Positions 1-18,386 of a stretch of 20,580 nt of DNA are shown here, piece by piece. The position numbers and the translations under genes are program-made. Location: positions 1-20,580 of IMG/VR virus record IMGVR_UViG_3300046559_000836; one strand, given 5' to 3'. A model generated the notes under the pieces. It did not search any database, was not told where the DNA came from, and worked only from the letters and a program-made list of their open reading frames with translations. Numbering within the stretch: the stretch's first letter is position 1; each line of letters starts with the position of its first letter. This DNA is from a virus.

Positions 1-160
1 AAGTAGCAGGTACCCGTTCACAGTAGAGTACATTATTTGAAGAACCAGTGAATCCTGCTGTACCTGCCTCCGTCATAGAATAACGGGGGAAGAGCATCTG
101 CCGATTCGCGGCTTGGGCGGTGCTTGCGATAACCAAAAATACGATAAGCCATCGTGTCAT
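1..160 (-). CDS. Secreted beta-rich protein, N-terminal part (cut by window edge)
   Basis: The first 53 codons are present and the rest lies beyond the left edge. The product starts MTRWLIVFLVIASTAQA, a clear Sec signal peptide with a predicted AQA cleavage site. The mature part continues with RQMLFPRYS and, about 25 residues later, NNVLYCERV. The two genes just upstream in the operon show the same pattern: an aromatic-Phe-Pro motif (YFPS, FFPD) followed about 24 residues later by a Cys (TLDCVRW, VMSCAV). It is therefore probably a third member of that tandem family. The ATG overlaps the TGA of the upstream gene as ATGA, so translation is likely coupled. Function is unknown; export is inferred from the signal peptide alone. 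Confidence 0.75.
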   Translation of the reverse strand, partial: MTRWLIVFLVIASTAQAANRQMLFPRYSMTEAGTAGFTGSSNNVLYCERVPAT

Positions 161-735
161 TGGATAATTCCCATTGGCGGCGCAAAGTCAGCTGCTGTAA
201 GAGCTCCTGTGGTCGACGGAAGAACAGCTGCACCTGTACAAGAATTAGCTGCTGTTCCTGCCACGACGCCTGCTGCACCTGCGTTTAAGAAAGCGTTGAT
301 TTTCATAGCTGTACTACTAGCTGAAGAATCTGTAGATACAGCATCAAAGGACATAATAGCATCAGCACAAACGCATAGACGATAGCGCGTTCCTGCTACT
401 ATATTGAAAGAACTTGCTGTTGCAGTGAATGCGATAGGGGGAGTAAATATGGGCGCGTTAAGGGTAGTACCAACTAACTTCGCACCCGCATTATCATCAA
501 CATAGAGCGCAAATCCCCCATTAGCTCCTAATGATGATGTAACTTCCATGGTCAATCTAGTCGCGCCCGTACGATCAGCCGTTGCTATCCAACGAACACA
601 ATCGAGTGTATTGACTGTACCAGCACCTCCACCTACTTCTAAATTAGTCGACCCAGGCATAGATGGAAAATAAAGTTGCGTTACTTCAACAGCATAAGCT
701 GTCCTGAGTAATAAAAGAAATATAAAAATTCGCAT
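157..735 (-). CDS. Secreted 192-aa beta-rich protein with four Cys, tandem family member
   Basis: The N-terminus MRIFIFLLLLRTAYA is a short signal peptide with an AYA cleavage site. The mature protein is rich in Gly, Ala, Thr and Val, typical of a beta-sandwich. Its cysteines fall in DCVRW, YRLCVCAD and ANSCTG. The downstream part of YRxCxC and the ANSCT...PSTTGALT block recur in the 238-aa neighbour encoded just upstream, so the two are tandem duplicates with the same C...CxC...C arrangement. The start overlaps the preceding stop as TAATG, and the stop overlaps the next ATG as ATGA, placing it inside one operon. Known function: none recognised. Inference: an exported, possibly disulfide-bonded surface or fibre-associated protein. 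Confidence 0.8.
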   Translation of the reverse strand: MRIFIFLLLLRTAYAVEVTQLYFPSMPGSTNLEVGGGAGTVNTLDCVRWIATADRTGATRLTMEVTSSLGANGGFALYVDDNAGAKLVGTTLNAPIFTPPIAFTATASSFNIVAGTRYRLCVCADAIMSFDAVSTDSSASSTAMKINAFLNAGAAGVVAGTAANSCTGAAVLPSTTGALTAADFAPPMGIIQ

Positions 736-1451
736 TATTCAACTCCAATTACGGCAATGTTTATAAGCTGTGGAGTCAAAGCGCCAGTCGTAGATGGAGG
801 TACTCCATTTGTGCAGCTATTTGCAGCCGTTCCAATGACCGTTTCGTAAACATTAGCCATTTTAGCATAGGTCGGGCCATTGAAATTTGTAGCCGCGAGT
901 ATATTATCTCCACTCTTACTACACCAACATACACGATATGCAGTATTACCAAAAAGGGTAAATGATGATACGGTAATAGTTTGTGGACCAGATGCGCTAA
1001 TGCTAACAGATCCACTTGCAACAGCTGCTCCTGCATCGGCATTTGCGTAGATCGCAAGTCCCGCAACCGCTGCACCTAGTTTGAAACTAGCTCGTAGAGT
1101 TGTAGCTCCTGCGACCGAGAGAGCAGGTGTCAATACCGCACACGACATTACATCAGCTGTGATAGATTGTTCCTTTGTGCCAACGATATCAGGGAAGAAT
1201 GTAGCTGATGCTGATGGACCGAGGGTTGTACTAGTTGATGTACTACTAGTACTTGATGTAGTTGAGGAGCTAGTACTGCTACTTGTGCTGCTTGAGCTAG
1301 TAGATGTAGATGTCGATGTAGACGAAGATGTAGATGAAGAAGTAGACGAGCTAGTCGAACTAGTCGTCGGATTTATCAAATCCATATCGAAGATAAGCGC
1401 ATGCGCGCTTGTCGCGATAAGAATTATTATAGAAGCGTAAAGCGTACGCAC
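735..1451 (-). CDS. Secreted protein with 48-residue Ser/Thr (mucin-like) linker and beta domain
   Basis: The GTG start at 1451 is preceded by GGTGA at a workable spacing. Residues 1-18 (MRTLYASIIILIATSAHA) are a signal peptide. Residues 29-76 consist only of Ser and Thr, followed by a beta-rich domain of about 160 residues. That domain shares FFPD, YRVCWC and ANSCT...PSTTGALT with the next gene in the operon, and the four-Cys pattern is the same. The Ser/Thr tract uses many synonymous codons, so it is not a simple DNA slippage product. The start overlaps the end of the upstream fibre-like gene by 25 bases. The tract resembles flexible or O-glycosylated linkers of surface proteins; whether it is glycosylated cannot be seen from sequence. 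Confidence 0.8.
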   Translation of the reverse strand: MRTLYASIIILIATSAHALIFDMDLINPTTSSTSSSTSSSTSSSTSTSTSTSSSSTSSSTSSSTTSSTSSTSTSTTLGPSASATFFPDIVGTKEQSITADVMSCAVLTPALSVAGATTLRASFKLGAAVAGLAIYANADAGAAVASGSVSISASGPQTITVSSFTLFGNTAYRVCWCSKSGDNILAATNFNGPTYAKMANVYETVIGTAANSCTNGVPPSTTGALTPQLINIAVIGVE

Positions 1452-3020: not shown

Positions 3021-3382
3021 TAGCGCGCGGCCTCAAAATAGCACGTCGCGGATCCGGTCAGGCCCGAGCCGGTTTTAGCACGGATGTACGTATGATGCTG
3101 CTGAATGTACGCGACGGTCTTATCGGGGAGATCCACAAGCTCCTGAACGGTGCTTGTCGCTTCTGTGTAGTTCTCACCCCCAACAACCCCAATCCCGCGT
3201 TCCCATTGAACGTTATCGTGTGAAACTTCAATGTTAACGCCCTGCGTTCCAGCAGCACCACCACCAAGACCATAACCGCCTTGGGTATAGATACTATACG
3301 GTAAGCCACTCATGCCAGACTTAAATACAGTCCCTGTGAAACCAGCAGCGGCAGCGTTCAGAAGCTTAACTCGACTCGGCAT
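3020..3382 (-). CDS. Hypothetical beta-rich phage protein, 120 aa
   Basis: The ATG at 3382 has GGAGA six bases upstream, a good ribosome-binding site. The product begins MPSRVKLLNAAAAGFTG and has a Gly-rich centre (GGYGLGGGAAGTQG). It then continues as alternating hydrophobic and polar residues (VNIEVSHDNVQWERGIG, ATCYFEAAR) that suggest beta strands. There is no signal peptide and no membrane segment. It sits between small membrane proteins and the zinc-type protein in the late operon, so a minor virion role is plausible but not shown. Confidence 0.6.
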   Translation of the reverse strand: MPSRVKLLNAAAAGFTGTVFKSGMSGLPYSIYTQGGYGLGGGAAGTQGVNIEVSHDNVQWERGIGVVGGENYTEATSTVQELVDLPDKTVAYIQQHHTYIRAKTGSGLTGSATCYFEAAR

Positions 3383-3576
3383 TATCGTCTCCTTTCCACC
3401 GTTGGCGGTGGAGGCCAGGTTCCATGATAGAACAGCTGTTGAACTTTCAATTCAGCCACATCGGATCGAAGGCTGATACTCGAATACAATAGAGATATAA
3501 TAAATGCAGCTAAAACAGCTCCAACTACATTTACTACGATAGATCGAATATCACTCTTACTTCGCCTGGGGGGCAT
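3382..3576 (-). CDS. Small single-pass membrane protein
   Basis: A 64-aa product with a basic N-terminus (PPRRSKSDIR), one transmembrane segment at about residues 13-34 (IVVNVVGAVLAAFIISLLYSS), then a short polar helix and a Pro-rich tail (WPPPPTVERRR). Size and topology fit phage lysis accessory proteins (holin or inner-membrane spanin) but also many unrelated membrane proteins. It lies directly downstream of another one-pass membrane protein and a 56-aa coiled-coil-like protein, making a compact three-gene group. No family was recognised with confidence. Confidence 0.6.
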   Translation of the reverse strand: MPPRRSKSDIRSIVVNVVGAVLAAFIISLLYSSISLRSDVAELKVQQLFYHGTWPPPPTVERRR

Positions 3577-3584
3577 GAATTTAC

Positions 3585-3902
3585 CTATAGTTGATTATGT
3601 TTACTTAGCACATTCTCTAAACGATCAAAGCGATTGTTATCGTTTGTATCATGAAGCGTACGCCATTCCTCGAGTCGAATTAAACGGCCATTCATTAGGT
3701 TTACAATCCTGAGTGTTTCGGCACTAGCGTTACTAGCTGTTGCAGATGTTAATGCTATGGTATCCAGCTTTTCAGAATTTACTAGATGATATGACTTTGT
3801 CCTAGAAAGCTGTACAAGCAAAACCCCTGCGAGCAAACAGAAAACGCCTACTGGACCTAGTGCACTAGATAGCCTCATGATAACATCTATAAACTCTGTC
3901 AT
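3585..3902 (-). CDS. Small membrane-anchored coiled-coil protein
   Basis: ATG 3902 is chosen over the upstream TTG at 3911. It overlaps the TGA of the preceding 56-aa gene as ATGA, and GGGAG lies just before it. The product is 105 aa. One transmembrane segment (about residues 17-33, GPVGVFCLLAGVLLVQL) is followed by a polar helical region (NGRLIRLEEWRTLHDTNDNN, RFDRLENVLSKH) with heptad-like hydrophobics. An N-terminal anchor with a long soluble helix is compatible with an inner-membrane spanin-type protein, but also with other membrane-bound phage proteins. Confidence 0.6.
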   Translation of the reverse strand: MTEFIDVIMRLSSALGPVGVFCLLAGVLLVQLSRTKSYHLVNSEKLDTIALTSATASNASAETLRIVNLMNGRLIRLEEWRTLHDTNDNNRFDRLENVLSKHNQL

Positions 3903-4069
3903 GGCTCCCAATCAGGTGGAGGTTTAGGTAGAGTGGTTTCCTTAATGAGAAGCTCTAAAAGCTGAATCTGTGCTTCTAACCCTACACATTGAGTTGAATA
4001 GTTAGCTACCAGTTGTCTAGCTTTATCTCGATTTTGGGTTGCTTCAGCTAGATATTTAGTTAAGTCCAT
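3899..4069 (-). CDS. 56-aa helical protein coupled to the membrane protein
   Basis: A short open frame from ATG 4069 to TGA 3899. It starts MDLTKYLAEATQNRDKARQL, continues through a leucine-rich helix (LEAQIQLLELLIKE) and ends PKPPPDWEP. The ATGA overlap with the next gene and the fill of an otherwise empty 170-base gap, with no stops and a sensible amphipathic pattern, support it as real. There is no strong ribosome-binding site; it starts five bases after the stop of the tail fibre gene, so re-initiation is likely. Function is unknown; the helical, Pro-tailed form suggests a small partner of the membrane protein that follows. Confidence 0.6.
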   Translation of the reverse strand: MDLTKYLAEATQNRDKARQLVANYSTQCVGLEAQIQLLELLIKETTLPKPPPDWEP

Positions 4070-4073
4070 ATTG

Positions 4074-5168
4074 CTAGTTCAGATCTACCCATGCACCAGC
4101 AGCACGACCGCGGAACTTATCTGTAGTGGTATTGTAAATAATCATACCGTTAACTGGAGATGAGAAGGCGCCTTCGTCTGTATTGTCCATGCGAGGAGTA
4201 AGGAACGCCCGTGGAGTGCCAGGGGTCGATACGAGCTCAAGCACTGATTCTGCTTCTGGCGTTCCGGACGATCCGAAGATGCCCGCGCCGGCATTCTGTG
4301 ACGCGCGCGCCGGATCTTCGTTGAACACGCTCGCGTAGACGGTGGTCGCTATGATTGGATCGTTGCTCAAGCGACGCGGGGGAAACCAGAGACCTGCATC
4401 ACGGGCCACGGTCGCGGTCCCCGCGCCACCGCCGCCGATCGTACCCATGTGCGTCCAGCCGAAGTTGTCGGCAACGGTGGTCGTCCCATCACCGCCGATC
4501 CGAATCTGATGCGTCGTGTTCCCGCAGACTGGCACGGTGAGGTCGCAGCCTGTGTCGGCCAAGAATATCATGTCCGTCTTGCCGAGAAACAAGCCACCGA
4601 ACGATCCAGCCGTCTGCCCAGTCGCCTTCGCGGTGATAACGGGCTCGAAGTCCAGCAGCTCTGAGAAGCCTAGCAATATCTGTCCGCTTGTACCCACTTC
4701 CCCATTGATATTTGGTTGCACAAGCATTCCGAAGAACCCTAAAATGCCGTTCGCGCCGGTCACGTCCCAGACCGTCGTGTCCTGAGAGGCAAAGTTGAAG
4801 TAGACGATAGCCGCAAACTGGCTCGCCGTGTCCCAGGTGAGGGACTGCGACATGTCGAATACGTGTGGGGCGGCATCGGTGATCGGGCCGATCGTCGTGA
4901 CGTTCTGGTTGAAGTTGATGACGGCATGGGGGTTGAACGTTGTAGAGGTGTTCGCATTCAGGGCTAAGCCAACACCCGTTCCTGCTGAGCCGGTGATGAC
5001 ACCGGTCGCGTCAAGTGATAGGAGCGCATCGTTATTTGTTCCAGAACGTCCACCTAAAAGCAGATACTGAGTATGATCATCGAAATCAGTTAGGTGAGAT
5101 AGAAGATGATGGTTACTCGTTCCACCCCCACCACCGCCAGGTTTCTGGCCAAAGGTAGGAGCGCCCAT
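4074..5168 (-). CDS. Tail fibre or spike protein
   Basis: A 364-aa product. The N-terminus has a poly-Gly linker (PGGGGGG) followed by HLTDFDDHTQYLLLGGRSGTNN, the DDHTQYLLL-GGR motif common in phage fibres. The middle is beta-rich and Gly-Thr-Asn-rich, as expected of a fibre shaft. The C-terminus (RAFLTPRMDNTDEGAF, NGMIIYNTTTDKFRGRAAGAWVDLN) matches the typical fibre-end segment. It is not followed by a chaperone domain, so it is complete as is. Base composition changes sharply inside the gene: about 70% G+C around 4261-4440 against about 42-47% at both ends, suggesting exchange of the central region. The role in host attachment is inferred from the family pattern. Confidence 0.85.
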   Translation of the reverse strand: MGAPTFGQKPGGGGGGTSNHHLLSHLTDFDDHTQYLLLGGRSGTNNDALLSLDATGVITGSAGTGVGLALNANTSTTFNPHAVINFNQNVTTIGPITDAAPHVFDMSQSLTWDTASQFAAIVYFNFASQDTTVWDVTGANGILGFFGMLVQPNINGEVGTSGQILLGFSELLDFEPVITAKATGQTAGSFGGLFLGKTDMIFLADTGCDLTVPVCGNTTHQIRIGGDGTTTVADNFGWTHMGTIGGGGAGTATVARDAGLWFPPRRLSNDPIIATTVYASVFNEDPARASQNAGAGIFGSSGTPEAESVLELVSTPGTPRAFLTPRMDNTDEGAFSSPVNGMIIYNTTTDKFRGRAAGAWVDLN

Positions 5169-5425
5169 TAGTGAACCAGAAGTTGATAGTTAGGCGTTCC
5201 ACTCACCGGTTCGAGTGTTAGCTTTCTAATTTCATTTTTGATCCGGAAGCCTAGCTTATCGCCCGGGGCGAATGTCCATGCTTCAGTCGAACCATTGATT
5301 TTAAGGGTGAAGCTAGAACCTCCATCAGCCTCGAGGTTTTCAACTGCGACAGAGCTAGCTAATCCAACAGGAACTATATCCAGCAAACCAGCCAACGCAC
5401 CTTTAAAAATCTCGGGAGTTTTCAT
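5168..5425 (-). CDS. Hypothetical 85-aa beta-rich protein beside the fibre gene
   Basis: Starts MKTPEIFKGALAGLLDIVP, then alternating-pattern sequence (FTLKINGSTEAWTFAPG, KLTLEPVSGTPNYQLLV) consistent with a small beta domain. There are no cysteines, signal peptide or membrane segment. The ATG overlaps the stop of the ligase gene upstream as ATGA, and its stop overlaps the fibre start as TAATG, so it is translated as part of the same chain. It could be a fibre-attachment or minor virion protein, judged only by position. Confidence 0.6.
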   Translation of the reverse strand: MKTPEIFKGALAGLLDIVPVGLASSVAVENLEADGGSSFTLKINGSTEAWTFAPGDKLGFRIKNEIRKLTLEPVSGTPNYQLLVH

Positions 5426-6837
5426 TCAAACTTCGGAGCGCTGTTTACGTCAGATGGAGGTACAGCTAAGTTCACATTATTGTTAGCGTGGTGAACCGGA
5501 GCTTGGGATTTCGATGAAACGATCATCTCTTTGAATGTATCCGGGCTGGGATATTCTACCTTCGGCGCTTCAACCCGCACGGGTTCCATATAAGGCTTAT
5601 CATACAGCAACCGATCGAGCTCTCTAACAACTCCGAAAACGCGCTCGCAGCAATCATTTCGATATTGCGCGCTAGGGATTTTGAACTGCTTAACCAGATT
5701 AAAGCAATCATCCCTTAGTACTCCCAGTTGGCGTCCGATCATGCCGAAGCTTCCAACGATCCCAGTTGAGCCAGCGATTACGGGAAGGCGCTGTGAATCG
5801 AGCATGATGTCGCGGAGCATAACCGAGGTCGGATAGTCAAGCAAAGCTCGATCGACCGGAGATCCTTTAGCCAGCTTCCCATCGTCAGTGTGAGGATAAG
5901 GTGGAACGCTTACATTATACGTACACGCGTACTCGCCACGCATATCAAATTTACTCAAGCGCTTGTTAGCGAACTCAACCAGCTGTTCCCCAAAGTTAGC
6001 CGGAGCTAGCAAACTAAGCGCCTGTATGGCGTCGTAACCGAAACGTGGAGTCCACTCAAGCCCGTAAGGAGTTCCCTCACTGTCAATGATGCAGTTGATA
6101 TCAACTGGACCGACATACTTCGCCCTTGCAAGAGCTGGTGAGATTCGAGTAAGAGTTGCACTAGCAAGACGTGGCTGCGGTTCTTCGTACGTCCAGACAA
6201 CATTCCCCATACATCCGACGTTAGGGCCCAGATCGCCAGCGAGAAAACGCTTATCCTCAACAGTCGAATTAAATGGATAGATGAACTCGCGACCATTGTA
6301 CCAGCCCTCGAGGGATAGCTCGGTTCCTTTAACTTTCTTCTGAAGGATATAGTCTTGCGAAGGATGTAGTTTCATAAACCTACTGAGCATATCAGCATAA
6401 CCGCCTTGCGTCCATGAGGCATGCTTGTTGTCAGAAGGCTTATAAAACCACTCATCCGTTTGATTCTTTAAGAAGCTGATTCCATCAGCCGTGCTTTTAA
6501 AAACTTTTGTTTCAGGTGTCTTGATCCCATAGTGCTGCATCAGACCGATGCCAGCTGCGCGATCGAGCTCGATCATGTCTGACCATTTCGAACCCCCAAT
6601 AACAGCCTGGCCACGCTTACGCAGTTTATCCGCGAATGAGCCCATTCCTTCGCTATCGACGATCACAGTCTCATCACTGTCGGGCATAGGCGACTGGGCT
6701 TTGTCGAGCATGCCATCATATATAGGCTTACAAACCGGATGCTGAATAAACAACCGGACCTTGTGACCTTCACGTTTCAAGCGCAAGCCCAAAAACGCGC
6801 TGTCCCCATACATGGATGCTATGAAAAATCGACTCAT
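5422..6837 (-). CDS. PurD-like ATP-grasp ligase
   Basis: A 471-aa protein with the overall plan of phosphoribosylamine-glycine ligase (PurD). It has a Rossmann-like N-terminal region (residues 3-60), then VIGGSKWSDMIELDRAAGIGLMQHYGIKTP (79-108) matching the PurD stretch ahead of the ATP-grasp domain. ATP-grasp hallmarks follow: VKGTELSLEGWYNG (169-182), DKRFLAGDLGPNVGCMG (195-211) and GPVDINCIIDSEGTPYGLEWTPRFG (243-267). The C-terminal part contains QYRNDCCERV, like the PurD end domain. The usual substrate loop is altered (DLGPNVGCMG instead of GPNTGGMG). It lacks a ribosome-binding site and sits just after a palindrome at 6842-6858. PurD joins glycine to phosphoribosylamine in purine synthesis; here, in a virion operon, an amide-forming role on another acceptor is equally possible. 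Confidence 0.8.
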   Translation of the reverse strand: MSRFFIASMYGDSAFLGLRLKREGHKVRLFIQHPVCKPIYDGMLDKAQSPMPDSDETVIVDSEGMGSFADKLRKRGQAVIGGSKWSDMIELDRAAGIGLMQHYGIKTPETKVFKSTADGISFLKNQTDEWFYKPSDNKHASWTQGGYADMLSRFMKLHPSQDYILQKKVKGTELSLEGWYNGREFIYPFNSTVEDKRFLAGDLGPNVGCMGNVVWTYEEPQPRLASATLTRISPALARAKYVGPVDINCIIDSEGTPYGLEWTPRFGYDAIQALSLLAPANFGEQLVEFANKRLSKFDMRGEYACTYNVSVPPYPHTDDGKLAKGSPVDRALLDYPTSVMLRDIMLDSQRLPVIAGSTGIVGSFGMIGRQLGVLRDDCFNLVKQFKIPSAQYRNDCCERVFGVVRELDRLLYDKPYMEPVRVEAPKVEYPSPDTFKEMIVSSKSQAPVHHANNNVNLAVPPSDVNSAPKFE

Positions 6838-6841
6838 AGGA

Positions 6842-6858
6842 TTTTCAAATTTTGAACG
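6842..6858. promoter_or_regulatory. Degenerate 17-bp palindrome before the ATP-grasp gene
   Basis: TTTTCA-AATTT-TGAACG is a 10-of-12 match to the TGTTCA-N5-TGAACA palindrome found near the terminase genes and in the right-hand control region. It fills the 22-base gap between the stop at 6860 and the start at 6837, where a ribosome-binding site would be expected and is absent. It may be an internal operator or simply AT-rich spacer. Confidence 0.35.
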
Positions 6859-6859
6859 T

Positions 6860-7273
6860 TTAACGTGAAGCTAACATTAACCAGTGAGAGTCCTGCTCGT
6901 TATAGACAAATAGAGCTATTGAACAAACGAGATCGCCTACGAAGGTTCTGATTCGGTTAGCTATAGCGGAGCCAGCGTTGTCGTCAGCTATGGTCATCGC
7001 CCCAGCGGACACATTATAAATCACCAAAATGCGTCCGCTCGAGCCAGATCCGATTCCTGTGATCGTGAACGGGTTTATAGGTCCTTTGATGTTAAGCATC
7101 ATCGCGTTAGCAACAGCGATGTTGTTGTTAACTCCATCAGCCAGAAGTAAACCATCCACAGGAAGAGCGAGCGATAGCATATTCCTTTGTAGGAACTCTA
7201 CCACTCGCTCTACCCATCCACGCACATCAGTGCCTAAGATTCGTGGGATAGGTTCCTGTGTTGGAAGGCTCAT
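6860..7273 (-). CDS. Hypothetical 137-aa virion-type protein
   Basis: After a polar N-terminus (SLPTQEPIPRILGTD) comes a short helix (VRGWVERVVEFLQRNM) and then a beta-rich domain (PFTITGIGSGSSGRILVIYN, GAMTIADDN, SHWLML). The ILVIYN..AGAMTIADDN...A..R pattern is familiar from small beta-helix or beta-sandwich proteins beside phage tail genes, where it forms part of the appendage. The ATG follows directly after the stop of the membrane protein upstream (TAA then ATG). No enzyme motifs are present. Confidence 0.6.
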   Translation of the reverse strand: MSLPTQEPIPRILGTDVRGWVERVVEFLQRNMLSLALPVDGLLLADGVNNNIAVANAMMLNIKGPINPFTITGIGSGSSGRILVIYNVSAGAMTIADDNAGSAIANRIRTFVGDLVCSIALFVYNEQDSHWLMLASR

Positions 7274-7453
7274 TTAGCTAAGCTTAACTGGCTGGGTGGT
7301 GATAGTTCTCAAGCCAATGTTACCAGCTACAAGACTATCGGTCAGGATTCCCTGCGGGATGTTGATAACTCCAGTTGTCTGCAGAACCTGCAAAATAGCC
7401 CCGATTATATTGAACCAGAAGGTTTTACTCTTCAAAATGTTCTTAGCATCCAT
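7274..7453 (-). CDS. Holin-like small membrane protein
   Basis: ATG 7453 is chosen over the ATG at 7483 because GGGAG lies eight bases upstream; this gives 59 aa. The sequence starts DAKNILKSKTFWFNIIGAILQVLQ and ends LVAGNIGLRTITTQPVKLS. The SKTxWFN..GA......GN..LR..TTQP layout is that of a widespread small phage membrane protein often annotated as a holin. One hydrophobic segment spans about residues 12-27. It overlaps the upstream glycosyltransferase gene by 11 bases. The endolysin is far away on the other strand, so holin function is not supported by linkage. Confidence 0.6.
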   Translation of the reverse strand: MDAKNILKSKTFWFNIIGAILQVLQTTGVINIPQGILTDSLVAGNIGLRTITTQPVKLS

Positions 7454-8309
7454 TATAGTTCTCCCTATACCAGATTTTAGCACGTTCGAAAACTAGTCGT
7501 GGTTCACGCCAGAGCGACGCGACATACGATCCGTTATCGAGCATCGCCTGCGGCGCCCATGAGGTTGAGAGTTCAACCTGATGATCTGGCCACATCATGA
7601 AAGCCGGTTTCTTTAGAACCGTCCTGAGAATGCCCATACCGCTCGAGAAACCAATATAACCGTCGATCTGTTCGAGAACATGAATCATACTCGGGACATT
7701 TGTTTTACCTACGATGTCTTTATACGATTCTTCTGATGCTAGGGTATGTGTCAAGTCATCCCAGAAACCCCCCATGAGCAAGATAGTGCCTCCTGCAAGA
7801 TCCTGCCACATGCGTAGAAAAAGCTTCCATTCGTCAAAGCCCCAGGTTTTCCAAGCTTCAGATCCCCTGTAGCTCGCCGCGCTGATTCCCCATATCGGTC
7901 GCGGCAGGTTTTCTATCAACGCTAAGGCGCGTTCTCTATCTTCAGTGCAAATACGAATCGGATAATGAAACTCAGTAGGAAGATCAGGAAGCCAATCTTC
8001 AAGACGCTTACCAGCTTCCAGATGCCGGTTACATTCGAGGTAGATGTTATCGAAGCCTCGGGTTGAGATATCCTTCCATGTTCCGTTTCCATTGTTGTAC
8101 CCGTGAACAGATTCAAACATGATGATGTCTTCATATTTGAACTGTGCGTAGCGAGCGTCATGGACGCCCTGGAGGAGTTTCAAAAACGGCGCTGTTCGCG
8201 CTGGCCAGCCCTCGCTCACAATCCAGTTCATCATTCCTGGAACGTTGCAGAGCTTACTATACATCCAGCTAACATCACCAATCCCGCTTGGAACATGAAG
8301 GTTGATCAC
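7443..8309 (-). CDS. GT9-like (heptosyltransferase-type) glycosyltransferase
   Basis: A 288-aa GT-B-type protein. The N-terminus VPSGIGDVSWMYSKL matches the Gly-rich first loop of the GT9 family. The C-terminal half has IWGISAASYRGSEAWKTWGF followed by GGTILLMGG, the nucleotide-sugar domain. IDGYIGFSSGMGILRTVLKKPAFMMW (215-240) aligns with the GT9 motif D.(F/Y)(I/V)G.DSG..H(L/I)A..L.KP. The usual DSGPMH is replaced by SSGMGI, so donor or acceptor specificity may differ. It is shorter than cellular heptosyltransferases (about 320-350 aa). The start overlaps the upstream GT2 stop as ATGA, so the two enzymes are translated together. Donor sugar and target are unknown. Confidence 0.75.
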   Translation of the reverse strand: MINLHVPSGIGDVSWMYSKLCNVPGMMNWIVSEGWPARTAPFLKLLQGVHDARYAQFKYEDIIMFESVHGYNNGNGTWKDISTRGFDNIYLECNRHLEAGKRLEDWLPDLPTEFHYPIRICTEDRERALALIENLPRPIWGISAASYRGSEAWKTWGFDEWKLFLRMWQDLAGGTILLMGGFWDDLTHTLASEESYKDIVGKTNVPSMIHVLEQIDGYIGFSSGMGILRTVLKKPAFMMWPDHQVELSTSWAPQAMLDNGSYVASLWREPRLVFERAKIWYRENYNGC

Positions 8310-9154
8310 AGCAGTGACCCACCTTCATTAAAGAACTTAAGCATCCCATCCCAATTTTCATCGGGAAGTTTATCCATGATTAGAACGGTCTCGTTACCTG
8401 TCTCTGCTGGCGTTTTGCCCCCGGTCGCTTGCTGCCATGCTTCGACGGTATGATATCCCAACGCCCCTGGAAGTTGGGGTGTGGCTCCTCCAAAGTAGTG
8501 AACACGAGTGGGTCCCGGTAACGTGATGCAGGCCTTACCCTGCTTCCAGCATTGATAGCCGGCCCATTCATCTAAACGCCATGTGCATTGTGGGAAGCCT
8601 CCCATTTTGGTGTAGAGGTCTTTGCTAATGGAAAAGCCTGCGCCGTTCAGGTTAATGTATTTACGCGGAACGCCTGGGCCTTCCCAGTGTGGATTCCTAG
8701 GGAGCTTTTCCAGGTAGTGATTCTCCCACATTGCCTCACGATGCGGTAATGCTCCCATGGACACGAGATCAGTAGCGTTCCAGTATGGAGCTTGAATCCC
8801 TCCAACCCAGTCACGGCCATAGGTGAGTACCCCGGCGTACTCGTTCCACAACGCTCCTTTAGGAAAGCGGACATCGTCTGGGACATAGATTATCCAGTCT
8901 TCATCAGACCATCGCATGGCGATGTCGATGATGCCTTGCATGCATGTCCATTCGATTCCAACGTGATGCTTGAGCTTATAGCCTTTACAGATCGCAGCGA
9001 TTTCACGTGTAACTTCTTCACGATCCTCGTATGGACTTGGGTCTTCAAACACACGAACCGGAATATCTGGCATGCCTGACCAGAACATGTTTTCAAGTAG
9101 GCCAGCTAGTCTGGCTGGATTTCTATACGTTGTAATCGCAATCGCGACGCTCAT
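8306..9154 (-). CDS. GT2-like (GT-A fold) glycosyltransferase
   Basis: The N-terminus VAIAITTYRNPARLAGLLENM is the first beta strand and helix of GT2 enzymes. WIIYVPDDVRF (88-97) supplies a DxD-type metal-nucleotide site. Further on, NLNGAGFSISKDLYTKMGGFPQ resembles the acceptor-side loop, and TWRLDEWAGYQCWKQGK resembles the catalytic ED..L..R....G region, with the acid at D-E-W. There are no membrane helices, so it should act in the cytoplasm. GGAG lies six bases before the ATG at 9154, which overlaps the methyltransferase stop as ATGA. With the GT9-like enzyme downstream it could build a short glycan; substrate unknown. Confidence 0.8.
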   Translation of the reverse strand: MSVAIAITTYRNPARLAGLLENMFWSGMPDIPVRVFEDPSPYEDREEVTREIAAICKGYKLKHHVGIEWTCMQGIIDIAMRWSDEDWIIYVPDDVRFPKGALWNEYAGVLTYGRDWVGGIQAPYWNATDLVSMGALPHREAMWENHYLEKLPRNPHWEGPGVPRKYINLNGAGFSISKDLYTKMGGFPQCTWRLDEWAGYQCWKQGKACITLPGPTRVHYFGGATPQLPGALGYHTVEAWQQATGGKTPAETGNETVLIMDKLPDENWDGMLKFFNEGGSLL

Positions 9155-9810
9155 TTACATCTCCAATAACCCATCGGGTTTTGTGTTAGAGAGAACTTCT
9201 CACACCACTCCATACGTTCCCAACGGTTATCGGGCTGGTCACGCATGAATCTTTGCAGGCCCCAGTATGGACCGCCAAGATCGGTGTCTTCGACAATCAA
9301 TATATCTCCAGAGATGAGTATGGGAGTCCAGAGCCTGAGCTCAGCTTCTACATGCTCATAGCTATGCCCATCATCTAAAATCAGCAATCGCTGACCGTTT
9401 TGACCAGACATAGTGTACATGAGTGAGATAGCACCATCTAAAGTATCTCGCTTGAGCGTGTCACCCTTGTTATAGGATAAACGCTTATGCGTCGGGAGAT
9501 CGTCAGTTAGATCAATATCTGTACTAACCACCATCCCTCGACCTACAACCTCACACATATCCGCGAGATAAAGACTCGTACCTCCACCTGCTACTCCATT
9601 CTCGAAGATTCCAGTTATGTTATTTTTCGATATGATCTCCTGATAGATCCAAAGATCTGTTGGAAATTTAAGCGCATTGTAACCACGGTAGTTTAACCAC
9701 GGCGGGCCGAGGGGACCTTCCGGATTTGACTTTCGATAAAATTCGTGGAACCTGGCCACAACAGGTTCTTTAAACAACTCACTCGATTGTGCAATGTCCG
9801 GAAGGTCCAC
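9151..9810 (-). CDS. CmcI/TylF-like SAM-dependent methyltransferase
   Basis: The GTG start at 9810 is supported by AAGGA eight bases upstream; 219 aa. FENGVAGGGTSLYLA (69-83) is the SAM-binding loop, VVSTDIDL (94-101) the second acidic motif, LLILDDGHSYEHVEAELRLW (142-161) matches the DxDHxYxxVxxDL signature of the cephalosporin hydroxylase/macrocin O-methyltransferase families, and LIVEDT (171-176) follows. Family members methylate sugar or polyketide hydroxyls, metal-dependently. Position directly ahead of two glycosyltransferases favours methylation of a glycan made by them, which is an inference. The usual E-(I/L/T)-G start of motif I reads E-N-G here. Confidence 0.8.
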   Translation of the reverse strand: MDLPDIAQSSELFKEPVVARFHEFYRKSNPEGPLGPPWLNYRGYNALKFPTDLWIYQEIISKNNITGIFENGVAGGGTSLYLADMCEVVGRGMVVSTDIDLTDDLPTHKRLSYNKGDTLKRDTLDGAISLMYTMSGQNGQRLLILDDGHSYEHVEAELRLWTPILISGDILIVEDTDLGGPYWGLQRFMRDQPDNRWERMEWCEKFSLTQNPMGYWRCK

Positions 9811-10074: not shown

Positions 10075-10983
10075 TCACGCTCCCTGCGAGCCGAAGCTCC
10101 CACGCCAGTCGCCAGCGCCAACGGAGAAGCGCTGGAAAGACTTATACTTCGCGTCGCCGGTATCGAAGTCATCGTCGTTCTGGAAGCGAAGCTCGGTTCG
10201 GGTAACGAAGTTAAAATCATGGTCAGACTTATCAGCGAACACGAACCACGAGTCAGTGTCAGTCAGATATCGAACCATACATTCAGTAAAGTTCTCCATC
10301 CGGACTGCGTTGACTTCGTTGTTGTTCGTGTACGGGCGATACTCGGACCCGAGGATTTCCCGGACCGCCTGCTTGGTGCCAGGCGGGTACACGATCATCC
10401 GAGGATGAAGCGTGATCGGGAAGCCAAGTTCATCGACCAGGTTATCGAACAACAGCACCGCAGCTTCAAGAGCCGCAACACCGAAGTCCGCATCGGTCGA
10501 TGCACGGTTAGCGAGCGTTCCACCACCAAGCAACGTATGCGCGGTGTTGAACAAAGCCTCGTTAGAACCGTTCTTCGTGAAGCCGAATTCGGTGGAGAAG
10601 CCGTTGTTCAGAACGTTAAACGCCCGAACCTCGCGAACGTTTCGCGCGGCCTTTCCAAGCTCCTTCGGCATCTTCTTCATAGGTCCATAGAGATCGTCTT
10701 CCCACATCTCCATGGTAACACGGAAGCCAAGGCCGAAGCTGATGTGGGTGTAGCGCTTCTTTCCACCCTGCTTAGGCTCTTGGTAAGTGATCGGGGTTCC
10801 CTCAGGCTTCTCCGGCATGGAGCCCAAGCCGACCAGCTCGAGGTCTTCCTCGAAGTTTCGGGTGCTAGTTCCGAGGTTAAACACCTGTGTGTACTGAGTA
10901 TCTACCTCTTTGTAGCTCTGGAAGAAGATCTTCCGCAAGCCGGGAACTAGAAGCTGACTAAACTGTCCAGTGTTAGTAGGCAT
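10075..10983 (-). CDS. Major capsid protein (Mu gpT / HK97-fold type)
   Basis: A 302-aa protein in the expected place after scaffold and decoration genes. It begins MPTNTGQFSQLLVPGLRKIF, with the early helical region typical of gpT-like capsid proteins. FNLGTSTRNFEEDLELVGLG follows, then ITYQEPKQGGKKRYTHISFG with F.VTMEMWEDDLYG, the segment resembling the E-loop and spine-helix region of this group. The C-terminal half has NTAHTLLGG, PRMIVYPPG and DSWFVFADKSDHDFNF, and ends FSVGAGDWRG. No protease or delta domain is visible, so the scaffold is separate. GAGGA lies about seven bases before the ATG. It forms the icosahedral head lattice. Confidence 0.88.
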   Translation of the reverse strand: MPTNTGQFSQLLVPGLRKIFFQSYKEVDTQYTQVFNLGTSTRNFEEDLELVGLGSMPEKPEGTPITYQEPKQGGKKRYTHISFGLGFRVTMEMWEDDLYGPMKKMPKELGKAARNVREVRAFNVLNNGFSTEFGFTKNGSNEALFNTAHTLLGGGTLANRASTDADFGVAALEAAVLLFDNLVDELGFPITLHPRMIVYPPGTKQAVREILGSEYRPYTNNNEVNAVRMENFTECMVRYLTDTDSWFVFADKSDHDFNFVTRTELRFQNDDDFDTGDAKYKSFQRFSVGAGDWRGSFGSQGA

Positions 10984-11495: not shown

Positions 11496-12011
11496 CTATC
11501 TCCTGCGGACTCCTGGCATGGAGCCTTCATCCTCTGGCAACTGACGCATTTTTTCGTTGAACTCCGACTCAGTCACGCTATCGCGTGCGTTCGCCGATGT
11601 GTCACGATGCTCTTCAATTGTCAGATCTCGTTGACCTTCAGCACTACTCATACGGGCAACAGCTTGCCGGTATGCAGCAGTGACACCTTGCGTCTGCCGG
11701 AGGATTTTTGCTCTCTGCCGGTTTTGACGCTCCTCGAACCTCTCGCGTGGGCAGGACATCAAAATCATGTCGCCCATCTCAATGACGGTTGAGATATCTT
11801 CAGGCTTTTTTAGTCTGGAGGTATCATCCATCACATGCTCAACGCCGGAATCACGGGAAACCTCAGTGTATCCCATGAGCTTTTTTCTGGTGATGTTTGT
11901 GGAGCTTTTACGAACCCAGCGGTAGTGACGGTTTTCGTCGAGCTTTCCATGAAGCTTGGTCCCATCAAACTGCTGCTGATCGCCTTCGTCCTTTGTTACT
12001 TCGATGCCCAT
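11496..12011 (-). CDS. Hypothetical head-module protein
   Basis: ATG 12011 is chosen over the longer start at 12056 because GGAG lies seven bases upstream and the scaffold stop is at 12013. The 171-aa product starts GIEVTKDEGDQQQFDG and includes HYRWVRKSSTNITRKKLMGYTEVSR. That segment resembles a small recurring motif in unknown phage proteins beside scaffold genes (YRWVN...R...LGYE.V). A long charged helical region follows (RFEERQNRQRAKILRQTQ, SEFNEKMRQL). It may bind head or scaffold proteins; function is unknown. Confidence 0.65.
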   Translation of the reverse strand: MGIEVTKDEGDQQQFDGTKLHGKLDENRHYRWVRKSSTNITRKKLMGYTEVSRDSGVEHVMDDTSRLKKPEDISTVIEMGDMILMSCPRERFEERQNRQRAKILRQTQGVTAAYRQAVARMSSAEGQRDLTIEEHRDTSANARDSVTESEFNEKMRQLPEDEGSMPGVRRR

Positions 12012-12012
12012 G

Positions 12013-12744
12013 TTAGCTCTCCACGTCCCGGTATTTGAGGTAGTCGTCTTCAGCAAGCCCGAGGCCCTTTGCGACTTGCTTCTCGATATCGCTAAGGGTC
12101 TTGCTCACACGCCGATCACCGGACCCGCCGCTTGGCGCTTCGACAAAGGCGCGCTTCTCGTTTTCGATTTTAGCTTCGTAGCGCATCTTGACTTCGTCGT
12201 TTACATGTCGGGCACGAACCCAGCCGATGGCAGCATCGTAAGCGCCTGGATCTGCTCGAGTTGTCGCGGGCATGTTCTTCATGAACTCATCGACTTCCTC
12301 GCCATATATATCTGCGAGGCTTTTGTCGGTACCTTCAATCTTCTCTTGCTTGAACTTATTGAAGGCTAGTTCACGATTCATACGAGCTTGGTTCTCGGCG
12401 ACACCCGCGACGAGAGGAGCTGCGCGCTCTGCGAAGTGTCGATCGAGAAATGCCTGGGGGTTTTGTGCGAGAAGTTCAGTCTGATCAATCTGCTGATGTT
12501 CAGCGAGGTTGCTTTGCTGGGTTCCCGCGCGTGCAGCGGCTTCTTGCAACGAAGCTGTAAGCTGCCCAACAAACTGCTCCGCTCCCTCAGCACGCTTTAC
12601 AGCGTTCTGAGCAATCTTCTCGAGCTCGCTATATCGAGCCTGCAACTCGGGATCAGGCGTAGGCGCAACGGGCGCATGTTCAACTTTTGAACTTTTATCT
12701 TCCGGTGGAAGGTCATTCGCTCCCGGGATCACCAGTTCTGGCAT
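12013..12744 (-). CDS. Scaffolding-like protein
   Basis: A 243-aa, highly charged, Cys-free helical protein with a Pro-rich, polar N-terminus. It has a long coiled-coil stretch (about residues 34-85, including ARYSELEKIAQNAVKRAEGA), a middle helical part (FNKFKQEKIEGTDKSLADIY) and a basic C-terminal helix (SKTLSDIEKQVAKGL). Composition, length and place between portal and capsid genes match phage scaffolds, which template the procapsid and leave. AGAGGA lies about eight bases before the ATG. The start overlaps the preceding small gene by 32 bases. There is no visible protease motif, so maturation protease is not encoded here. Confidence 0.75.
   Translation of the reverse strand: MPELVIPGANDLPPEDKSSKVEHAPVAPTPDPELQARYSELEKIAQNAVKRAEGAEQFVGQLTASLQEAAARAGTQQSNLAEHQQIDQTELLAQNPQAFLDRHFAERAAPLVAGVAENQARMNRELAFNKFKQEKIEGTDKSLADIYGEEVDEFMKNMPATTRADPGAYDAAIGWVRARHVNDEVKMRYEAKIENEKRAFVEAPSGGSGDRRVSKTLSDIEKQVAKGLGLAEDDYLKYRDVES
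12677..12693. promoter_or_regulatory. 17-bp palindrome inside the scaffold gene
   Basis: TGTTCA-ACTTT-TGAACT matches the TGTTCA-N5-TGAACA pattern at 11 of 12 arm positions. It lies within the scaffold coding sequence close to its start and encodes ordinary residues there, so it may be coincidental or an internal operator. Confidence 0.3.
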
Positions 12745-12994
12745 GTCTTAATTCCTCTACCTGCGTTCGCAGGTCATCCTCAAATCCGAGGATTGCTTTG
12801 AGTGCTTTGACGACTCCACGGGCTTCCAAGAATTCATTGAACTCTTCAAGCTCCGATAGATCCGACAAGGCCCTGTTGTGTAATAGGGTCAGGTATGCCT
12901 TCAGCTCCTGCCATTCCGGGCTCTTGCGGAGCCGAAGGATCACGTCCAGCAAGCTCGCCAGGGATTGTTGGCGGGCTGTTTCCATTAGATCCAT
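12713..12994 (-). CDS. Small helical protein overlapping the portal 3' end
   Basis: A 93-aa product. LASLLDVILRLRKSPEWQELKAYLTLLHNRALSDL and later ARGVVKALKAILGFEDDLRTQVEEL give the layout of a small helical protein often found between portal and scaffold (SPEW..L...L......L, then RG.VKALK.IL.FEDDL). The start has AGGA about ten bases upstream, within the portal gene. It overlaps the last 149 bases of portal in a different frame and the scaffold start by 32 bases. Function is unknown. The overlap is unusually long, but both frames look protein-like. Confidence 0.6.
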   Translation of the reverse strand: MDLMETARQQSLASLLDVILRLRKSPEWQELKAYLTLLHNRALSDLSELEEFNEFLEARGVVKALKAILGFEDDLRTQVEELRHARTGDPGSE

Positions 12995-14720
12995 CAGGTA
13001 AGATTCCTGGTACGACTAGGTCGATGTTTTTTACATCGAACGTTTGTGCGATGCGCTTCATGAGATATTGGGCGCCCTGGGCTTCACGCATGAGAAGTTC
13101 CTTAAACTCCGGTGGAACCTGGGGGTTCATGATAGCTTGTCCAGCCATCGCGAGCTTTTCATAATACTGCTGTGTGACGCCCATCAGCGCCATCAAGCCC
13201 TGCTTTTCCATCTCGCGATTGATTGTCGCGGTTGTGGCAGTTAGTTCGACAGCGACCTTAGCAGTCGAAAATTCGGGTGGGAGATCGAGAGCTTTATCGG
13301 TCAGTAAGCCATCTGAGCCCTGGACCATATATGCTAGCCCACGTGAACGGAACACCTGGTTCAGGAAGATGATATCGCGACCGACGGCTGATAGAACATC
13401 TCGAGCATCTCGGATATTCAGATCAAAGCGCCTGTTGCCCTCTTGGATAAGAGCCATCGTCGATGTAGCAGTAGCACGAGAACCAGCAACACTTGATTCG
13501 CGACCAAGCTGGTAGTCACTAACTCCCGAAGCACGCTCCGCGTATGCCAGGGCTCGAGACTCCAGAACACCACCAGATTGATAAATATCCCCAAGCTGCA
13601 TGGGAACAAGATCTTTAGCAGGATCATTGACGAGCAGCAGACGTCCTGGCCAGATTTGGGTGTTAGGTCTAACAACATTTCGCCTCCCGACAAAGAAGCG
13701 TGTGTTAGCTAGGGTGTGGTTGTCGATCTGTTGGCGATGAAGCGTGCTGAGCTCCTCTTGCATTTGCCAGAGTCTGCGCGCGATTCCGATTCCCTCAAGG
13801 CGACCTTCACGTTCAGTAAACTTCGATTTACGAAGCGGACGGAAGCCATAAGGGTTATAGACACATCGGCAGATCTTTTTCAGCTGGCGATGGTAGACGA
13901 CCAAAATCGGAATCGGGATTCTAGAGGGACCAAGAGGAAAGTCCATCCAGAACTCATACATCACATTGATTTTTTCAATTCCTGAAGTTGAAGCCATGCG
14001 CGATGACTTCATAGCTTCATGGTATTCGTTTGAATCCTCCTTTGCGTGGATTGCTTTGTCGATGTCGATATCGTATACGTTATCACGGCGGCGAAGGCGA
14101 AGCTGGTTGTTTGTTAAACGGATTCTATGTGCGATCCATTCAGCTTGGGTTTCGTTTTCAACGCCGGACTGGGTGATAACGTCGCGATTGAGGATATGAT
14201 AAACGTTAGGCCTACGGACAATTTCATCGTCAAAGACGATTCCACCGGTAGGTGAAGGCTTATAGCTCGGGTTTCTATAGACTTCCCAGCCAACTTTATA
14301 CCACGACCAACCGTATTTAACCAGTTCGATTACGTTGGTTCGAACTGCGTTGTAGAGCTGGTACTCGCTCTTGCGCGACCATTCCATGTAATCTTGAAGC
14401 GGGCGCGCTATGAGCTCAGTCTCTTTACGCAAAGCACGGATCGTCCAGAACGGATCGGTCATGAAGATCGTGTTAACGACCCGAGCGACGATGCTATCGA
14501 CCGTGATCCCGATCAGCGGAATCTCGATGTTCGCTGCGCCGGGCCACGGAAATGAACGCTTCATCTGTTTGGGATCGCCAACGTAAGCGCGGTCCCATTC
14601 GTTCAGCCGTTGCTCGCGCTCAACATGATCATCAAGCGCCTCGTCAAGCTCCTTCTCGATATAATCCTGAAGCTCCTTAAGCTCAGCTTCGGATAGATCT
14701 ACTTTAGTTCCGGGGATCAT
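12846..14720 (-). CDS. Portal protein
   Basis: A 624-aa protein. The N-terminal acidic helix is followed by LNEWDRAYVGDPKQMKRSFPWPGAANIEIPLIGITVDSIVARV (39-81), the 'FPWPGAAN..IPLIG...D.i.AR' block typical of large portal proteins in unclassified tailed phages. The core has DVITQSGVENETQAEWIAHRIRL and a helical stem. It ends in a Pro/Gly-rich tail (PTIPGELAGRDPSAPQEPGM). It forms the dodecameric ring at one head vertex where DNA is packed and to which the tail binds. No ribosome-binding site precedes the ATG, which overlaps a short upstream ORF as ATGA and lies inside an inverted repeat. Confidence 0.88.
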   Translation of the reverse strand: MIPGTKVDLSEAELKELQDYIEKELDEALDDHVEREQRLNEWDRAYVGDPKQMKRSFPWPGAANIEIPLIGITVDSIVARVVNTIFMTDPFWTIRALRKETELIARPLQDYMEWSRKSEYQLYNAVRTNVIELVKYGWSWYKVGWEVYRNPSYKPSPTGGIVFDDEIVRRPNVYHILNRDVITQSGVENETQAEWIAHRIRLTNNQLRLRRRDNVYDIDIDKAIHAKEDSNEYHEAMKSSRMASTSGIEKINVMYEFWMDFPLGPSRIPIPILVVYHRQLKKICRCVYNPYGFRPLRKSKFTEREGRLEGIGIARRLWQMQEELSTLHRQQIDNHTLANTRFFVGRRNVVRPNTQIWPGRLLLVNDPAKDLVPMQLGDIYQSGGVLESRALAYAERASGVSDYQLGRESSVAGSRATATSTMALIQEGNRRFDLNIRDARDVLSAVGRDIIFLNQVFRSRGLAYMVQGSDGLLTDKALDLPPEFSTAKVAVELTATTATINREMEKQGLMALMGVTQQYYEKLAMAGQAIMNPQVPPEFKELLMREAQGAQYLMKRIAQTFDVKNIDLVVPGILPDGSNGNSPPTIPGELAGRDPSAPQEPGMAGAEGIPDPITQQGLVGSIGA

Positions 14721-16305: not shown

Positions 16306-17841
16306 CTAATACCCCGTTACGTTAGACCGATCAGGACTCCACATGAACTGACGTTCTTCCTTTTCATCGTCAGCGTCAGAGCCCTCGAGCGGTTTGTGCC
16401 ACATGTCCGGACCGTAAGCGAAAGCGTCGAGAAGATCGACCGTGAGGCCGGTTGGGAAATCGTTCATCTCTTGAAGTAGATCTTCTTGACTCTCTAGCAT
16501 CCAGATCAGGCCAGCTTGAACATAAGGCTCGAGCTTTCCCCTGATACGATTTTCCTTTTTGGTTCTACTATCAGGGTGGAGCTCAACGACATCAACCCAG
16601 ATCCCACGATTCGCCGCTGCGGTTTCGATAATGGGTTTCAAGATCTTCTGATACGCAACTGATTCAATTCCCCATTGCGCGGCCTGCCAACGCTCATGCA
16701 TGGCGAACGCTTCACGAATCATCTCGCTTGGCTGACAGCGCTTGGCCCAGGTCTCGAGAACAAAGATCCGACCGTCGCTGTGCATACCGTCTACGACAAT
16801 AGCAGACCTAGCTGCCCCGGGCTTTTCGCTGATTGCGGGATCAATGCGGAGAGTGATGTTGAGCTTGACTGGATCGATAACACTTGCCACGATCCCTGCC
16901 TTTGGTACAATGTAGCCATTACGCCATTCATAATAACGGATTTTATTGGTATCAAAAGCTCCCGACTCAGGATCTCGGGGCTTGCAGAGATATTGGCAGC
17001 TGAATTTGAATGTTCCATATTTCTTTTTCAATCGCTCAAATGTGGTCGCGGTGAAACGCTCGGGCCAGATAGTCTCAGTTCCTAACTCCCCCGGGGTTCC
17101 GTAAGCTCCACGTTCGAAGATCTGGACATCTTGTTCGTTCTTTCGAATCCACTGATCAAGATCGTTGAACCCCCACGGAGTCCCGACATTGAAGATCCAA
17201 CCTTCTTCGGGATGGTCGAGGAGAGATTCACAATACGTATACCAGTCGATGGTCTTACGCATTGTTTCAGCTTCCTCACTCGCGGCTTTCCCGACGAGAT
17301 CGTCTAATTTGATAACATTGAAGTGGCGAGACACGACCGCGCCCCCAACTCCAATAGTCTCAATCGTAGCCTCTGGATAATCCTCGGCCCGAGGCAGGGT
17401 AATCTCAGTGGCGTTCCATCGTTTAACGGTTCCCCAGTCAGGAATGAGGTCTGGAAAGAGCCATTGATAAAGGGCATTGCGTCTAAACACAGCGTCAATT
17501 CTGGCAAGGAAATGCTGTGCGTTAGTCGAAGTTTCGTTACCAAGCAGGATTCGCACATTTGGATTTTGGGAGATGGTTTTGATAGAGTGGGCTATGGTCC
17601 AGACACTGGTCTTAAGATGATCCCGGGGCACGATCCCATGCAGGTGCCGCATGCCCGGTTCGCGCTCTAGATCAATCCAGTCACACATTTCGCGATGCAA
17701 GCCTGGGGTCATGTCCTTAAACCCCAGAATCGCTTTGCCCATGAAGTACGTTGAGCTACACGCCATCTCGCGCAGCTTCGCCCGGGTCTCGTCTGTGCGA
17801 GCTTCCTCGGGGATCACGAGCGATGTTCTAAGCTCTTCCAT
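16306..17841 (-). CDS. terL: Terminase large subunit (DNA-packaging ATPase/nuclease)
   Basis: ATG 17841 (TGATG junction with TerS) gives 511 aa. The Walker A-type loop is VPRDHLKTS (71-79), a variant where the classic Gly before Lys is Leu. Walker B is FNVIKLDDLVG (174-184), and the coupling motif is NVGTPWGFND (218-227). The RNase H-like nuclease domain follows: LRIDPAISEKPGAARSAIVV (Asp at 334), WGIESVAYQKIL (Glu at 393) and TVDLLDAFAYG (Asp at 469/472). It threads DNA into the prohead using ATP and cuts the concatemer. It sits directly downstream of TerS in the usual order. Confidence 0.92.
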   Translation of the reverse strand: MEELRTSLVIPEEARTDETRAKLREMACSSTYFMGKAILGFKDMTPGLHREMCDWIDLEREPGMRHLHGIVPRDHLKTSVWTIAHSIKTISQNPNVRILLGNETSTNAQHFLARIDAVFRRNALYQWLFPDLIPDWGTVKRWNATEITLPRAEDYPEATIETIGVGGAVVSRHFNVIKLDDLVGKAASEEAETMRKTIDWYTYCESLLDHPEEGWIFNVGTPWGFNDLDQWIRKNEQDVQIFERGAYGTPGELGTETIWPERFTATTFERLKKKYGTFKFSCQYLCKPRDPESGAFDTNKIRYYEWRNGYIVPKAGIVASVIDPVKLNITLRIDPAISEKPGAARSAIVVDGMHSDGRIFVLETWAKRCQPSEMIREAFAMHERWQAAQWGIESVAYQKILKPIIETAAANRGIWVDVVELHPDSRTKKENRIRGKLEPYVQAGLIWMLESQEDLLQEMNDFPTGLTVDLLDAFAYGPDMWHKPLEGSDADDEKEERQFMWSPDRSNVTGY

Positions 17842-18386
17842 CAACGCTTATCGAGCATCTCGTTCATGACATTAACCAGCTGACCGATCTGAGCGTCTGG
17901 GATTTTACCTGACACGCTGGCACTGACAACGCGCGTCGGGGCTCGTTTTCCTGCTCGGTCTAGGATATCCTGCGCTATATTGCTAGCCTCAACCTTCGCT
18001 TTGATCACATGTTGAGGCTCCAGCGCCATCTGCCCAATCTCCTGAAGCTCTCTCATTGACTCAAGCTCAACCTGAAAAGCCTCATGCGACGCGCTCTCAA
18101 TCGCCTCGTTCAAATCCGCAAACCCGGCTTCAAGCCCATCGCTTGCAACCCCATGCAAAAGCAAGATAAAGTTTGCCACATGCGGTTGCTTCAAAATTGA
18201 CTTAATCACATTATGATCCGTCTCGGTCATAAACCCGATTGAGTCAAGGCTCGCACCCGCGACGCGCATCATCGCGACCCGACGTTCAAGAACCGAGAGC
18301 TCACGCTTATCTGAAAGCAAACGCATGTTGGGATAACCCAAGCAGACCTTATGCAAAACCGGGGCCGCATATTGAAATATGTTCAA
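17841..18386 (-). CDS. Terminase small subunit-like protein
   Basis: A 181-aa product if TTG 18386 is used, or 161 aa from ATG 18326. Neither start has a good ribosome-binding site, and a short hairpin (TTGGG-ATAA-CCCAA) lies just before ATG 18326. Residues around ELSVLERRVAMMRVAGASLDSIG and TDHNVIKSILKQPHVANF form a helix-turn-helix region like those that bind packaging sites. The remainder is helical (DLNEAIESASHEAFQVELES, VEASNIAQDILDRAGKR), as in the oligomerising part of TerS. TerL follows by TGATG. A 17-bp palindrome spans the TTG start, so the true start may be the downstream ATG. Confidence 0.75.
   Translation of the reverse strand: MNIFQYAAPVLHKVCLGYPNMRLLSDKRELSVLERRVAMMRVAGASLDSIGFMTETDHNVIKSILKQPHVANFILLLHGVASDGLEAGFADLNEAIESASHEAFQVELESMRELQEIGQMALEPQHVIKAKVEASNIAQDILDRAGKRAPTRVVSASVSGKIPDAQIGQLVNVMNEMLDKR

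Follow-up and report, generated by a model that had tools for sequence, protein, structure and literature searches.

An uncultivated P22/SU10-type podovirus carries, within its late operon, a tandem array of three genes (ARR1 to ARR3) whose products begin with signal-peptide-like N-termini. Our preferred reading, which we hold tentatively, is that the array proteins and the product of the adjoining gene P0003 are adhesive (receptor- or glycan-binding) proteins of the tail fiber locus that are exported by Sec, stabilized by disulfides, and joined to virions at lysis. Tailed-phage virions are taken to be assembled in the cytoplasm, and the initial annotation of this DNA was right to regard apparent export as unusual for a virion operon.

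The stretch of DNA analyzed here (the window) is an entire IMG/VR record (20,580 bases) and represents a linear fragment of the phage. Its minus strand is a podovirus late operon with the gene order terminase large subunit (TerL), portal, scaffold-like gene, major capsid protein (MCP), a sugar-related block, P0003, and the array (Table 1). The initial annotation had placed the array at the end of the late operon, which proved to be wrong. The contig stops at window base 1, and a near-identical contig from a separate IMG record (L002/L009, 100% identity across the shared 2,794 bp) extends beyond it into an SU10-type adaptor gene (PF24175, 1.9e-16), a 220-aa protein, and a stopper (phrog_3287, 3.6e-29), followed by GNAT/P22-gp14-like genes and then large ejection-type proteins. 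Because that contig continues with adaptor, stopper, and ejection-type genes, the array lies inside the virion operon, in a slot between the capsid/glycosylation block and the adaptor. In the related control phage L103, the genes that fill this MCP-to-adaptor interval carry tail fiber annotations, which places the array in a fiber locus.

Table 1. Coordinates of the features discussed, given as window positions except where a contig handle precedes them.
Feature	Position	Strand	Description	Basis
TerL	16306..17844	-	Terminase large subunit	phrog_38, 1.4e-71
P0004	14921..15418	-	165 aa, predicted signal peptide, 9 mature Cys; between packaging genes and portal	
Portal	12846..14720	-	Portal protein	phrog_1216, 4e-18
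MCP	10075..10983	-	Major capsid protein, synteny anchor	phrog_371, 1e-16
364-aa protein	4074..5168	-	Few Cys, no signal peptide; non-exported contrast	Rule-based signal-peptide scan
P0003	1427..2803	-	458 aa, predicted signal peptide, 26 mature Cys; upstream of ARR1	
ARR1	735..1451	-	First tandem gene, 238 aa, GTG start; predicted signal peptide, Ser/Thr linker, domain with 4 Cys (104, 175, 177, 213)	
ARR1 linker	1221..1370	-	Coding sequence of the Ser/Thr-rich linker (SSTSSSTSSST...)	Tandem repeats 1300-1349
ARR2	157..735	-	Second tandem gene, 192 aa; predicted signal peptide and one domain with 4 Cys (46, 121, 123, 166)	
ARR3	1..160	-	Third tandem gene, 5' part only; predicted signal peptide MTRWLIVFLVIASTAQA and first ~36 mature residues	
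HTVC023P gp45 and gp46	L099:19481-20137 and 20171-21556		gp45 with predicted signal peptide and 4 Cys	

Several other features of the window were recorded alongside the array. The sugar-related block (5422-9810), which sits within the virion operon, encodes a CmcI-type methyltransferase, two glycosyltransferase-like proteins (GT9 among them), and an ATP-grasp protein; portions of it also occur in the relatives L007, L014, L015, and L016, and it possibly serves glycosylation of the virion or of the host surface. Three small late-operon proteins with hydrophobic segments (3382-3911 and 7274-7483) are possible holins or spanins, and a TIGR02594-family protein on the opposite (+) strand (19809-20255, E = 4e-33) is likely an endolysin. 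The 364-aa protein gave no family match in PHROG and Pfam searches; from motifs judged by eye (HLLSHLTDFDDHTQY), we take it to be fiber-like. No RNA families or tRNAs were found in the window, and no bacterial relative of the portal was found.

The array genes adjoin closely enough to overlap at each junction: P0003 and ARR1 by 25 nt, ARR1 and ARR2 at TAATG, and ARR2 and ARR3 at ATGA. ARR2 matches ARR1 by BLASTP (E = 4e-9, 32% identity), and Smith-Waterman alignment of the three pairs gave z scores of 15, 17, and 23 against 500 shuffles. Because of these scores, and because third codon positions vary most among the three genes, we regard them as protein-coding paralogues rather than products of chance, which bears out the original description of three adjacent, coupled tandem paralogues. 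That description had the third gene truncated and sharing the x-F-P and Cys motif of the others, and this too is confirmed by the continuation contig, in which ARR3 is complete (L002:2635-3213, 192 aa, with the same signal peptide as in the window) and contains FP...C, YRVCYC, and ANACV...PATTGALT.

A signal peptide had been proposed at each of the three starts, and a rule-based predictor agrees. The N-termini of ARR1, ARR2, and ARR3 (MRTLYASIIILIATSAHA, MRIFIFLLLLRTAYA, and MTRWLIVFLVIASTAQA) are of canonical Sec type, each with a charged n-region of few residues, a highly hydrophobic core, and a site of the AxA type, and cleavage is predicted at SAHA-L, TAYA-V, and TAQA-A, respectively. The Cys at +1 that marks a lipoprotein signal is absent from all three, the first mature cysteine lying much further along. 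In ARR1, a Ser/Thr linker of ~50 residues separates the signal peptide from the domain. The shared cysteines noticed initially hold up as well: each protein has exactly four, aligned in all three, with one near the N-terminus, two in the CxC that follows YR, and one within ANxC. FP and P(S/A)TTGALT are likewise common to the three. The motif of FP followed by Cys is thus present throughout, but the fixed spacing of about 24 residues that was claimed for it is not, as the distance is 22 residues in ARR2 and ARR3 and 17 in ARR1.

Searches of Pfam, PHROGs, NCBIfam, and PDB sequences returned nothing usable for the array proteins, and an NPL4 match at E = 0.03 was dismissed as fortuitous. When viral contigs and bacterial genomes (about 85,000 species, in a pattern-limited scan) were searched with profiles, and when 23 related records were examined, the sole matches were near-identical copies of this phage, among them L005 and L010; tblastn of ARR3 against phages and of ARR1 against plasmids gave no match. 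The records of the relatives L006, L015, and L016 end short of the array slot. With three sequences, AlphaFold produced models of ARR2 (pLDDT 54.9, pTM 0.60) and ARR3 (pLDDT 47.5) that are of low confidence. Each model consists of beta structure throughout, its principal strands falling at corresponding positions, so the expectation that the family shares one fold is addressed weakly. Among PDB and viral structures, those closest to the ARR2 model are beta-sandwiches (domains of TNF-like lectin, CBM6, C1q, and tail fiber type), at Foldseek E values of about 1e-3, TM of at most 0.56, and VIA Z of at most 8 from a weak model. Such matches are compatible with a binding domain and go no further. 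Specific identities suggested by individual hits (CBMs, a cyanophage A4 capsid chain, a mycobacteriophage central fiber, and insecticidal-toxin lectin-like domains) were treated only as instances of the common beta-sandwich.

Although the array family itself was found only in this phage, export in its slot appears to be a wider habit. Related podoviruses were gathered with capsid and portal profiles, and their late genes were scanned with the rule-based signal-peptide detector. In an exported-gene group consisting of the window's phage and five related phages with their continued records (L076, L081, L082/L093, L083, and L085/L091), 19 of 46 late genes encode a signal peptide and at least three cysteines, versus 1 of 105 genes in a control set of eight annotated phages and 0 of 44 in other relatives. 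The Fisher p value for this excess, 1e-10, is descriptive because the phages were picked for their exported genes, after the signal peptides had been seen. Every signal-peptide late gene of the group (19/19) encodes at least four mature cysteines. When all fetched loci with a capsid gene were scanned without such picking, 13 of 288 downstream genes were positive, and these fall in L081, L082, L083, L085, L076, and one cultured pelagiphage. The capsid tree unites L081, L082, L083, L084, and L085 in a single supported clade and puts L076 with the window's group (90/84).

The exported proteins of these relatives number seven in the region of L085/L091 and five in that of L093. One of these proteins is a recognizable tail fiber homologue: L104:1560-3341 is a single frame of 594 aa that begins with the predicted signal peptide MRWLVLVLILFASPAWA, has 6 mature cysteines, and matches PHROG tail fiber families (1.6e-5 and 8e-5) as well as annotated Rhizobium phage tail fibers. 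Directly after the adaptor, L091:5228 and L093:8792 are homologues (41% identity over 91 aa, including the signal peptide); in the window's phage, that slot holds a gene with neither signal peptide nor cysteine. The fiber N-module after the adaptor compares between this phage and L082 at E = 0.15, which draws its support from synteny more than from sequence. L093 also has a tandem exported pair (1484-2023 and 2027-2512) that is 42% identical, with conserved cysteines and an LCDG..C..C pattern, and that has a homologue in L085:14765-15328. This pair has the same architecture as the array but belongs to a family without sequence relation to it. The prediction that the array would recur in related phages thus stands for exported Cys-rich proteins in the same slot, including this independent tandem pair, but, in the searches above, not for the array protein family. 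Downstream of the capsid gene in L076 lies a further exported protein of 523 aa with 12 cysteines (11576-13147), in which weak BNR/sialidase-type repeats were seen (PF15892, 6e-5, below the cut-off).

Cysteine content sets these proteins apart. Its median is 2.5% in the exported proteins versus 0.46% among the remaining late proteins of these phages (p = 1e-5). The number of mature cysteines is even in 17 of 18 complete exported proteins (binomial p = 7e-5, with non-independent paralogues included), and P0004, with its nine, is the sole exception. High content and even counts fit disulfide formation in an oxidizing compartment.

P0003 has a short WNGxxW module in common with an exported, fiber-like protein of L085 (E = 0.001; z = 6.5). 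A C-terminal tip domain seemingly common to P0003 and L085:15344 was dropped, its score lying within the shuffles (z = 1.45). P0004 contains a CxGGTxxxxxCxxxxxCPxGxC-like stretch that by eye resembles repeats of bacterial secreted proteins.

From these observations, we infer a route in which the array proteins and P0003 would be made late, alongside the virion proteins, and exported via the host Sec system, with disulfides stabilizing them in the periplasm. Because their folding would need an oxidizing compartment, they would wait there in folded form and become fiber or tip components of the virions that they meet at lysis. The fiber locus and the fiber homology of an exported relative favor this joining of virions. 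Against it, the array domain has neither a fiber-family match (nor do ARR1-3 and P0003 have one in PHROG, Pfam, or NCBIfam) nor, in the searches above, a relative outside this phage. We know of no tailed phage shown to assemble Sec-exported subunits onto its virion, and we found no report of Sec-exported tail fibers in tailed phages in the open-licence literature.

That want of precedent, together with the separate non-exported fiber-like genes that the phage keeps and that may make exported fibers unnecessary, instead favors action on the infected cell. A somewhat less probable alternative is that the exported proteins work not in the virion but on the cell envelope, as a coat, in receptor masking or exclusion, or as glue to neighbors, with tail-fiber-like domains used since the same receptors or glycans are bound. 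The proteins carry apparent Sec signals; the ARR1 linker points to a tethered domain held out at some distance; and exported phage proteins with envelope roles have precedents in T5 Llp (PMC9586334), lambda Lom (PMC12309495), and pelagiphage curli (PMC9599517). However, the genes sit in the late virion operon and not in an early unit or one of their own, ARR1-3, P0003, and P0004 were found to lack a lipobox and any membrane anchor other than the signal peptide, and several of the related exported proteins are large and fiber-like, which is more than receptor masking needs. Among the roles initially offered for the array, virion appendages assembled after lysis gain support from the tail fiber homology and locus of the exported relatives, surface proteins of the infected cell keep the standing just described, and decoys drew no specific support.

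We consider it unlikely that the genes are morons, that is, host-derived secreted proteins lodged among the structural genes and serving some purpose other than adsorption (e.g., the ecological fitness of the host or virocell). The content of the fiber locus is very variable between relatives, the array genes were found in a single phage, and some motifs resemble bacterial secreted proteins by eye, but the pattern-limited bacterial scan yielded no relative, no internal promoter or terminator rises above chance, and export recurs in the fiber locus with different protein families. It is more improbable still that the N-termini are not true signal peptides and belong to cytoplasmic virion proteins that happen to start with hydrophobic residues. 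The predictions are purely rule based, and in other phages certain virion proteins, namely major capsid proteins, have been discussed as bearing false signal peptides (PMC10367356). Yet canonical n-, h-, and c-regions with AxA-type sites are present in 19 proteins of several families, versus 3 of 105 control genes, and they are strongly associated with cysteine content and with even cysteine number.

Comparison with known systems helps to place the array. With the tail fibers of P22- and SU10-like podoviruses, it shares the slot between capsid and adaptor/stopper, the late operon, apparently beta-rich modular proteins, and, through one exported relative, PHROG tail fiber families; it differs in its signal peptides, its many cysteines, and a domain without detectable sequence relation to those fibers. 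The MAT fibers of Bdellovibrio bacteriovorus are phage-fiber-like adhesins that carry signal peptides and are exported and adhesive (PMC10769870). They differ in being bacterial genes and trimeric, with a conserved ~130-aa beta-rich N-domain and often an S74 tip (PMC10769870); here Pfam found no S74 or other tip domain, though a predicted signal peptide is present. The filamentous phage protein g3p is a virion protein made as a Sec-dependent preprotein (PMC8310372), but its phage is assembled at the membrane, while the window's phage is of the tailed type, taken to be assembled in the cytoplasm.

Among exported phage proteins acting on the cell, T5 Llp is periplasmic and blocks its receptor, FhuA (PMC9586334). 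Llp/Cor superinfection exclusion lipoproteins resemble the array in being exported, phage encoded, and disulfide containing (export and a disulfide being predicted for the array) (PMC9586334), but Llp is a small periplasmic lipoprotein, whereas the array proteins lack a lipobox, are larger, and are tandem paralogues in a virion operon. Lambda Lom, exported and encoded between tail spike and tail fibers, is an outer-membrane beta-barrel expressed in lysogens (PMC12309495), unlike the Cys-rich paralogues of the array. Pelagiphages encode an exported curli system proposed to serve aggregation or superinfection defense (PMC9599517); P0001-P0004 and P0006 gave no Pfam match to curlin repeats, CsgF, or CsgG. 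Exported proteins of unknown function are also described in Porphyromonas phages (PMC10367356). The cultured Pelagibacter phage HTVC023P, which has a related capsid protein, encodes gp45 and gp46 downstream of its capsid gene and before the presumed adaptor (Table 1). The N-terminus of gp46 is signal-like by eye but below the predictor's cut-off, and neither protein has a sequence relation to the array.

Other phages of this lineage likewise bear predicted signal peptides on Cys-rich, tail-fiber-like proteins, a pattern suggesting that some of their adhesive equipment is made outside the cytoplasm. It is conceivable, though we advance it with reserve, that the receptor-binding apparatus of a whole tailed-phage lineage is finished there, its fiber subunits and small tip-like domains passing through Sec, gaining disulfides in the periplasm, and being captured by virions at lysis. 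If so, these phages would gain disulfide-stabilized adhesins beyond the reach of assembly in the cytoplasm. If fiber-like proteins are routinely exported, then either the particle is partly built outside the cytoplasm or fibers are re-used on the surface of the infected cell, and either outcome would change how fiber genes are read in metagenomes and help to match phages to their hosts.
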